Assembly (NCBI GenBank): GCA_019429205.1 | Contig: JAHYIT010000006.1 | Coordinates: forward strand, 17,236-81,235 | DNA from: Mariniphaga sp. | Lineage (GTDB): Bacteria > Bacteroidota > Bacteroidia > Bacteroidales > Prolixibacteraceae | Direction: 5' to 3' | DNA: 64,000 bases | Shown: positions 5,949 to 28,822 of the stretch, in pieces | How the letters are laid out: each line of letters opens with the position of its first letter | How positions within the stretch are numbered: position 1 is the first letter of the stretch | The notes under the pieces: generated by a model | The model's database searches: none | The model's input: only the letters and a program-made list of their open reading frames with translations | What the model was told of the DNA's origin: nothing | Translations under genes and position numbers: made by a program

Positions 5949-6088
5949 TATACTAAAAACGGGATAAATTTATACATTTATGTAAATTGGCAAAAAGCAA
6001 TTGGCAGTTGGCAAGTCATTTTGCCAACTGCACTTTTGCCAACTGCCAACTAAATTTGGTTGGCACATTTTATCCCGTGCGAAGTATA
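5949..6088. mobile_element. MITE-like dispersed repeat, copy 1
   Basis: Starts TATACTAAAAACGGGATAAATTTATACATTTATGTAA and ends CACATTTTATCCCGTGCGAAGTATA. Imperfect terminal inverted repeats TATACT(N4)ACGGGATAAA. Near-identical ends in a second copy at 27836-27979. Confidence 0.75.
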
Positions 6089-6109
6089 ATCACCACCAAT
6101 CTCCAACTT

Positions 6110-6628
6110 TCACTCTTGCTCCTCATCCGGTTTTTGAATGCTTCCGTAATACGAAATGGCTTGCCGGTTGGTGCTGGTTACATTAAGTGTGGAATATCCC
6201 AACTCCGAAATGAAGAAAGAATACGTAATGTAGTCCATTTTGTTTTTGACTTCCAGTTTAATCCTGTATCCATTCCCATCACTTTCCATTTCATAATTCT
6301 CGATGGGATGTGAAAAATCGAAAGCTGAATTACGGCCGCCATAATCTACATGATAGGCAACACCATAAAATGGTAAATACGAAAAAACTGAATCGCCCCT
6401 TACTTCAGCCTCAAAGGTATAACTTAGTTGAATACTCCCTCCTCCAAGCGGCATGGCATGAGTTGGAATAAATACAAATGTTTTGTTCTCAACCAGATTT
6501 TTTACTTCTTCTTTTCTTTTTTCCTGACGTTCTTCCCTTCGTTCTTTCCGGCTTTTTGCCGGTTCCTGGGCAAAAAGGTCAGGAAGAACTAATGTAAAAA
6601 AAAGTGTGAATAAAATTATTCCTTTCAT
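6110..6628 (-). CDS. DUF4251 domain-containing exported protein
   Basis: Signal peptide; KTFVFIPTHAMPLGGGSIQLSYTFEAEVRGDSVFSYLPFYGVAY pattern of the DUF4251 family. Confidence 0.8.
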   Translation of the reverse strand: MKGIILFTLFFTLVLPDLFAQEPAKSRKERREERQEKRKEEVKNLVENKTFVFIPTHAMPLGGGSIQLSYTFEAEVRGDSVFSYLPFYGVAYHVDYGGRNSAFDFSHPIENYEMESDGNGYRIKLEVKNKMDYITYSFFISELGYSTLNVTSTNRQAISYYGSIQKPDEEQE

Positions 6629-7583: not shown

Positions 7584-8416
7584 GCGAGGTAGTTTACCTG
7601 AACGGCACATTCATCCTTAAAGAAAAAGCGGCCATTTCTCCCGACGACCGTGGGTTTATTTTTGCAGACGGTGTTTACGAAGTGATTAAATATTACAACG
7701 GAAAACCTTTCCGATTCGCCGACCATCTGGAACGGCTGGAGAGAAGTTTACAGGAAGTTCAAAACGGATTTGAAGATTTAGCGGGCCTTGGATCGATTTT
7801 CAGCAAGTTACTGGAAGAAAACAATCTGGTTAAAACACATGCCGGAGTTTATTTGCAGATTACCCGCGGAGCAAACAAACGGGTACATCATTTTCCTGAA
7901 GGAGTTCAACCAACGGTTTATGCTTTTGCATTTACACTGCCTTCGTTTACCGAAAATCTGGAAAAAGGAATAAAAGTGATTACCCATGAAGATATCCGGT
8001 GGTTGCGCTGCGATATTAAATCGGTGGCCTTGTTGCCCAATACCATGCTGTACAACCAGGCAGTGGAGGCCGGGGCTGGGGAGTGCATCCTTATCCGTAA
8101 CGGAAAAGTTACCGAAGCTACTCATTCCAGCGTGCTGGCGGTAAAAAACGGAACTGTAATCACACATCCGCTTTCGAACCTGATTTTACCGGGCATTACC
8201 CGGAAAGTGGTTCTGGAAATTTGCGCGGAAAATAATATTCCGGTGGAAGAACGGGCCTTTTCAGAACACGAGTTGTACGAAATGGATGAACTGATAATTG
8301 CCGGTACCGGCAGCGAAATAACACCGGTTATCCGGATAAATGATACACCGGCGGGAAACAAAAAACCGGGTGAAATTACCCGGTTTCTGCAGCGTAAGTT
8401 TTTTTATTTGGTCTGA
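7580..8416 (+). CDS. dat: D-amino-acid transaminase / class IV aminotransferase
   Basis: [55 protein letters not shown] overlap with the nfo stop codon. Confidence 0.85.
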
Positions 8417-27386: not shown

Positions 27387-27722
27387 ATGGCCGTTTTAAA
27401 ATTTGACGAAGTGCCTTATGAAAAAGTAAAGGAAGGACTTCAGCGAAAAATTATTCATACCGATAACCTGATGAGTGTTTTGATTGATTTCAGTAACGGA
27501 CCCTGGGCAGAACCCGATCCGCCACATTCGCATCTGCATGAGCAAACCTCTTATGTGGCTGAAGGTGAAATTATATTTTATTGTGAAGACGAACCGGAGG
27601 TGCACTTAAAAGCCGGCGATATGTTTGCAGTTCCACCCAATAAAAAACATACAGTGAAGTTGCTCACCAAAAATGTAAGATTGATTGACAGTTTTACGCC
27701 GCTGCGGGAGGATTTCATTTAA
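27387..27722 (+). CDS. Cupin domain protein
   Basis: PPHSHLHEQTSYVAEGEIIFYCEDEPEVHLKAGDMFAVPPNKKHTVK. Confidence 0.85.
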   Translation: MAVLKFDEVPYEKVKEGLQRKIIHTDNLMSVLIDFSNGPWAEPDPPHSHLHEQTSYVAEGEIIFYCEDEPEVHLKAGDMFAVPPNKKHTVKLLTKNVRLIDSFTPLREDFI

Positions 27723-27723
27723 A

Positions 27724-27835
27724 AGTTGGCAGTTGGCAAAGGACAGTAGGCAGAGAGCAAAGGGCAGAGAGCAGAGAGCAGAGAGCAAAGGGCAGAGAGC
27801 AAAGGGCAGAGAGCAGAGAGTTAGGAGTTAGGAGT
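27724..27835. repeat. Heptanucleotide tandem repeat tract, 16 units
   Basis: Divides exactly into 7-mers: AGTTGGC x2, AAAGGAC, AGTAGGC, then alternating AGAGAGC/AAAGGGC, AGAGAGT, TAGGAGT x2; ends exactly at the MITE boundary. Confidence 0.9.
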
Positions 27836-27979
27836 TATACTAAAAACGGGATAAATTTATACATTTATGTAAGTTGGCAAAGGTACAGTTGGCAAAAAGA
27901 CTTGCCAACTGTACCTTTGCTCCCGAATGCTCGGGACCAACTAAATTTATTTGGCACATTTTATCCCGTGCGAAGTATA
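27836..27979. mobile_element. MITE-like dispersed repeat, copy 2
   Basis: Same 37-bp left end as 5949 and nearly the same 43-bp right end; palindromic core interrupted by TCCCGAATGCTCGGGAC. Confidence 0.75.
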
Positions 27980-27988
27980 GAAGCCAGA

Positions 27989-28822
27989 TTAAAATTTATA
28001 AACCAGTGATATTCCTTTTTGGTTTCCCAACTGAAAAGGAAAAATATCGAACCGTTTCAGGTGTTTGTTGTCCCATTTGTATTGGTGGGCGAGGTAAACC
28101 AGTTCGGTTGAAAAAATCCCGATTCCGGCTCCTACCAGCACATCGGAAATCCAGTGGGCGCTTTTTGCCACCCGCATGTAACCAACTGTTGCAGCAGCAG
28201 AATAGGCGCCAACAGAATACCACGGGCTCAATTCACCGAATTCCTTGTGCATAAAATGGGCAAACATAAATGCTTTGGACGTGTGGCCCGACGGGAAAGA
28301 ACGCACTCCTCCATTGGGTCGTGGCTCGTTAATCCAGTATTTTAGCCGGTCGGTGATTAATCCATTCAGTAAAAAACTTTTTACCAGGATTGCCGTGCTG
28401 TTGCCAAAGTTGTTTTTTCCTTTTATTCCCAAAGCGTTCAAACCATAAACTGCAACTCCGGGAGCATATTGCAGGTAGTCATCCACCCTTCCTTGGTAAG
28501 CCAGGTTTTCCTGCATAAATTCATGTACATTATTTTTCGTATTTGTTGCAAAATGCAAGGCGGTTCCGGTTGACATCAAAAGGGTAGGGGCAATCCAGGG
28601 TTTCAGCCCACGTTGTTTATCGGGATAACGGAAATTCAGCTGATGGATGGAATCTTGATGAAAGGAATAATAATTTGAATTTGAGTGAGAAGATTGATTG
28701 TCAATTAAAAAGTTTTTCTCATTTTCTTTTTCAGTACCAGGTGGATTTGCATAAAGCGGATTAATAACACCTAAAATCAGGAATTGAAAGGCAATTGCAA
28801 TTTTTAGCACACGCAATTTCAC
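27989..28822 (-). CDS. Phosphatase PAP2 family protein
   Basis: KYWINEPRPNGGVRSFPSGHTSKAF, RVAKSAHWISDVLVGAGIG. Confidence 0.9.
   Translation of the reverse strand: MKLRVLKIAIAFQFLILGVINPLYANPPGTEKENEKNFLIDNQSSHSNSNYYSFHQDSIHQLNFRYPDKQRGLKPWIAPTLLMSTGTALHFATNTKNNVHEFMQENLAYQGRVDDYLQYAPGVAVYGLNALGIKGKNNFGNSTAILVKSFLLNGLITDRLKYWINEPRPNGGVRSFPSGHTSKAFMFAHFMHKEFGELSPWYSVGAYSAAATVGYMRVAKSAHWISDVLVGAGIGIFSTELVYLAHQYKWDNKHLKRFDIFPFQLGNQKGISLVYKF

Follow-up and report, generated by a model that had tools for sequence, protein, structure and literature searches.

The tract between the cupin gene and the PAP2-superfamily gene is probably an intergenic heptameric simple-sequence array of a known kind, which grew by slippage and into which a MITE was later inserted at a TA. 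It is mainly a well-documented further example of heptamer arrays that have already been reported, and the evidence requires no function for it. Seven bases is the favoured intergenic tandem period across the Bacteroidota that we sampled, and individual slots can hold this period while the word changes. Words are also common to separate loci across the genome, which is not predicted by simple local slippage. The genome is a 5.12 Mb draft in 305 contigs. The window is a stretch of 64,000 nucleotides from this genome.

The spacer and its heptameric tract

The relevant features, with positions in the window, are as follows.

27387..27722, plus strand: gene for a cupin-domain protein (Cupin_2), ending 1 nt before the tract
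27724..27837, plus strand: heptameric tandem tract, 16 full units (27724-27835) and 2 nt of a 17th
27836..27979, plus strand: MITE copy with the TIR TATACTNNNNACGGGATAAA at both ends, TA ends and a heptameric hairpin core
27921..27936, no strand given: palindrome TCCCGAATGCTCGGGA, present where copies such as L004 have 6 nt of heptameric MITE core
27989..28822, minus strand: PAP2-superfamily gene, in convergent orientation to the cupin gene; the spacer ends at its stop codon
5912..5950, plus strand: left half of a 10-nt tract, the right half of which resumes at approximately 6089-6114
5949..6088, plus strand: second MITE copy of the window, which splits this tandem tract of approximately 10 nt, in phase with the TA counted once

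Read letter by letter, the tract measures 112 bases, which is exactly 16 heptamers. Units 1-8 are AGTTGGC AGTTGGC AAAGGAC AGTAGGC AGAGAGC AAAGGGC AGAGAGC AGAGAGC and units 9-16 are AGAGAGC AAAGGGC AGAGAGC AAAGGGC AGAGAGC AGAGAGT TAGGAGT TAGGAGT. The cupin stop codon TAA occupies positions 27720-27722, a single A follows, and the tract starts at 27724. The MITE begins with TATACT at 27836, directly after the last full unit ends at 27835. Hence, positions 27836-27837, the last 2 nt of the tract period, coincide with the TA of the MITE end. A sequence-only reading of this DNA had described 16 consecutive 7-mers, running from 1 nt past the cupin stop up to the MITE copy, and the letters bear this out. 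The same reading saw a gradual drift of the units. Instead, the units jump between discrete words; AGAGAGC and AAAGGGC, which differ at 2 positions, alternate in the tract, and it has no unit of intermediate sequence.

Tandem repetition of the 7-nt units is beyond chance. At lag 7, the tract has 78/105 matches. For 5000 copies of the tract simulated under an order-1 Markov model, the equivalent score averaged 34.9 and peaked at 61. Blocks of 14 and 21 nt recur within the tract, as multi-unit slippage would leave. The array would have grown in a spacer where the reading frame is irrelevant, through slippage or unequal recombination that repeatedly involved blocks of 7, 14 and 21 nt. The tract folds little (z -1.5 as RNA and -1.7 as DNA, quadruplexes being outside the calculation). 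There was no terminator-like site at 27600-28100, and the window had no matches to Rfam families and none in a tRNA scan.

The abutting MITE

The MITE copy at 27836..27979 folds strongly (z -11.2). Its core is built from AGTTGGC units too, as the sequence-only reading had it, and lag-7 identity in the core is 0.48 vs at most 0.32 at lags 4-6 and 8-12. In the MITE copy L007, AGTTTAA-like words lie approximately 10 nt away. The MITE-type TIR is present at approximately 76 places in the genome, and 25 complete MITE copies were compared.

The sole DDE_3 (IS630) transposase match in the genome is at C177:7771-8094. It is flanked by MITE-type ends at 7621 and 8831 on C177, 1.2 kb apart. Judged by this profile match, a putative parent transposase lies within the same ends, and G000:C177:7621-8831 is likely to be the parent IS630 element. 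The TA ends, and this sole DDE_3 transposase, mark the MITE as IS630-type by sequence. It carries the TIR and an apparent TA target duplication; no empty orthologous site was seen. Like IS630-type MITEs, which have a TA target, it is short and hairpin-forming, with TA ends, approximately 40 copies in the genome and one likely DDE_3 parent. Unlike them, it has a core of heptamer words and, in some copies, a nested TCCCGA-TCGGGA palindrome. In the genus, four other genomes were searched and none had the MITE. Its left end, or the heptameric core without the ends, was matched in G046, G048 and G049, which belong to other families of the order.

The palindromes have the form TCCCGA-loop-TCGGGA and, at two different sites of the MITE core, stand in place of six bases, CAGTTG or CAACTG. 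They occur at 27921-27936 of the window and in the MITE copies of L006, L011-L016, L026 and others. A longer form, TCCCGATAGCTATCGGGA, borders an AGTT tract in L325.

With the flanks joined, and the TA counted once, the second window copy (5949..6088) keeps the 10-nt period of its tract (7/10 and 13/20). The copy at 27836 keeps the 7-nt period more weakly (4/7). Since the period is kept across the junctions, the array is most likely older than the MITE; the second window copy argues well for this order and the copy at 27836 argues weakly. Most likely, an IS630-driven MITE then entered the array at a TA within it, which would have fixed the apparent right end of the array. Such a TA-targeted insertion would account for the exact abutment of tract and MITE.

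Alternatively, the array might belong to the MITE, as a flank or a coupled unit, and coupling of this sort had been suggested from the sequence alone. The exact abutment, and the AGTTGGC words of the MITE core, speak for such ownership. However, a heptamer array abuts just 1/25 complete copies, that at 27836..27979, and the second window copy interrupts a tract with a 10-nt unit. Most heptamer tracts, moreover, were found without a MITE. Ownership by the MITE is refuted as a general rule and we regard it as very improbable; the coupling seen at this tract is incidental.

Period 7 in the genome, its relatives and the phylum

We scored tandem matches at lags 4-30 in 0.83 Mb of the genome taken in stretches. 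Some of the contigs had been picked for carrying AGTTGGC or the MITE. In the lag scans, gene ends were defined by long ORFs rather than by a gene caller. At lag 7, and at score 14, there were 14 intergenic tracts vs 1 coding tract. Intergenic tracts numbered 7 at lag 14 and 5 at lag 21, with 0-2 at each of the other lags. Once the window and four AGTTGGC contigs were removed, 9 lag-7 tracts were left; an order-2 Markov null gave approximately 0. The relatives sample yielded 3 intergenic lag-7 tracts, plus 4 at lag 11 (Markov null approximately 0). The phylum sample yielded 10 intergenic lag-7 tracts vs a Markov null of approximately 0, and was partly drawn from AGTT-positive genomes, so that the density of tracts is not a fair average. 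In the sampled genome, relatives and phylum, intergenic repeats have lag 7, with its multiples, as their main period, which stands alone or almost alone. The heptanucleotide repeats lie at many loci in this genome and are mainly intergenic. Our first, narrow unit pattern had found one locus only. The sequence-only reading was to fall if this genome and its relatives held no further lag-7 tracts; such tracts recur both here and across the Bacteroidota.

The distance from a tract to the nearest gene end ranged from 0 to >500 nt, with start codons and stop codons both adjoined. Tracts occur before starts, after stops and in convergent and tandem spacers. The start of our tract at a stop codon, to which attention had been drawn, is thus no rule.

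A second, rarer intergenic period is that of octamer tracts, which were met at L044:9642-9718, L066:5084-5113 and L053:17559-17585 (AATTTGTC, AAACTATC and AAACTGTG types).

Orthologous places differ between close relatives in both the length and the sequence of the repeat, as judged by comparison of spacers. The genome belongs in or near Mariniphaga (Prolixibacteraceae), given that its cupin has 92% identity to the cupin of Mariniphaga sediminis. Neither M. sediminis nor M. anaerophila has a tract in the orthologous cupin-PAP2 spacer, which is short in both. In Mariniphaga LH_M28, and in Tangfeifania, the spacer has short stretches of related words. A slot in the Flavobacteriaceae behaves similarly. 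It holds approximately 11 AAGTTAG copies in G144 and approximately 9 TTAGTTG copies in G351, with flanks 86% identical between the two, which are members of one genus of another class, probably Flavobacterium. Several further species have heptamer-like words of other kinds at this slot, and many have none. At this slot, period 7 is kept although the words change.

In Mrazek's survey of 2007, as Rehm and MacGregor cite it, heptamers are said to be the commonest class of long simple sequence repeats, and slippage was reportedly proposed. Our results agree in that the heptamer is the dominant long period. What is added here, beyond that general survey, is a lag spectrum for the Bacteroidota and the turnover of words at fixed slots.

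The sequence-only reading likened the tract to the heptanucleotide short tandem repeats of cyanobacteria, and membership of that general kind is supported. Heterogeneous heptamers, (GGGANTN)n, are present at 186 loci in Xanthomonas, where they vary in length and sequence between relatives, and GGGGA(C/T)T repeats occur in Nostoc; the same authors cite the idea that seven nucleotides mirrors polymerase contact (Rehm et al., 2015; PMC4692102). Like these heptamers, the arrays described here are intergenic, have many loci per genome and a unit that is part fixed and part variable, and vary between close relatives. Unlike the G-quadruplex formers of Xanthomonas and Nostoc, they use words such as AGTTGGC, AGAGAGC, AAAGGGC and AGTTTAA, and have little structure of their own, quadruplexes again being outside the calculation. 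In the repeats of Rehm and co-workers every unit has three or four consecutive G, which is not a property of the tract; GGG is present in 3/16 units (AAAGGGC).

Direct repeats of TAACTGA are known from Beggiatoaceae, Cyanobacteria and five Bacteroidetes, and arrays of TAACTGA and other heptamers from Gramella, Aequorivita (A. sublithincola), Elizabethkingia, Flexibacter and Paludibacter (MacGregor, 2015; PMC4679880). Hence, ours is not the first heptanucleotide repeat from the Bacteroidota. We looked for the TAACTGA (TCAGTTA) unit in the tract and it was absent. The likeness is in the 7-base intergenic tandem units, common within a genome and with a scattered distribution over lineages, among them Bacteroidetes that have larger heptamer assemblages. 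The difference is that TAACTGA is one fixed word, mostly just upstream of BOGUAY starts, whereas the arrays here have several words and no fixed position or orientation with respect to genes.

Words shared between loci

Ten unselected tracts of the genome gave 10 identical-unit pairs. When heptamers were drawn from the genome's own intergenic DNA, 0.15 pairs were expected and the maximum was 4. The five tracts with identical units sit on three contigs. Not all are unlinked, as C195 has three of them at distances of 4 to 11 kb. Anchored on AGTT, a genome-wide search gave 17 tracts on 15 contigs, with a small set of words in which AGTT is mostly followed by TAA, CAA, TCG or CAG. Orientation of these tracts to neighbouring genes is approximately half and half, and an mRNA-level site, which we rejected, is thus unlikely. 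Within the family, preference differs by genome, with ATG/ATA in G011 and TCA/CAA/CCA in G021 and G026.

These data count against slippage as the whole account. Pure local slippage should amplify each locus's own heptamer, yet separate loci share words far beyond chance. Furthermore, AAAGGGC and AGAGAGC recur at a different locus in another genus (G034). Words of the genome's own could arise if arrays, whole or in part, were spread in trans, whether through ectopic gene conversion, MITE-borne copies or templated synthesis. The excess of identical pairs fits such spread, as do the AGTTGGC words that the MITE carries in approximately 40 copies and the pattern-found AGTTGGC tract L032, which sits inside a MITE-like copy. 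However, by eye, tracts with the same word have no common flank sequence outside the array, and AGTTTAA words are absent from the MITE. Sequence-biased slippage might also yield the excess of words. We consider spread in trans unlikely.

Quite unlikely, too, is a genome-specific factor that binds the arrays as double-stranded DNA, for instance at regulatory or nucleoid sites, so that selection holds period and words. Common words at separate loci in both orientations are expected of such sites. The unit is also part fixed and otherwise variable (AGTTTAA/AGTTTCG/AGTTCAA/AGTTCAG), a pattern for which the AGTT-anchored search itself selects. Yet the position of the arrays relative to genes is inconsistent, covering starts, stops, and convergent and tandem spacers. 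The array is missing from the orthologous spacer in sister species, and word sets differ among genomes of one family.

It is distinctly doubtful that each genome keeps its own heptamer vocabulary by a trans-acting process, with separate arrays sharing and exchanging words and the 7-nt period being kept. The process, as part of the same doubtful proposal, might be templated synthesis, ectopic copying or a heptad-reading protein. Our preferred reading remains an array grown by slippage.

AGTT is a preference of this genome and not of the phylum. Five-fold AGTTNNN was found in 100/299 genomes, but the reversed control, TTGA, was found in approximately 62 (a count by eye). Among phylum tracts found by lag alone, AGTT was present in just 1/11, near the 8% null. 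AGTT was rejected as a fixed phylum rule. A broad ARARRGC pattern, with 11 genomes vs approximately 4 for the reversed control, was also rejected.

Some heptamer tracts, such as L235 (G132:C11:70675-70769), L236 and L237, have the same or similar words again after them, in inverted orientation. The inverted copies at these three loci are predicted to be able to form long hairpins.
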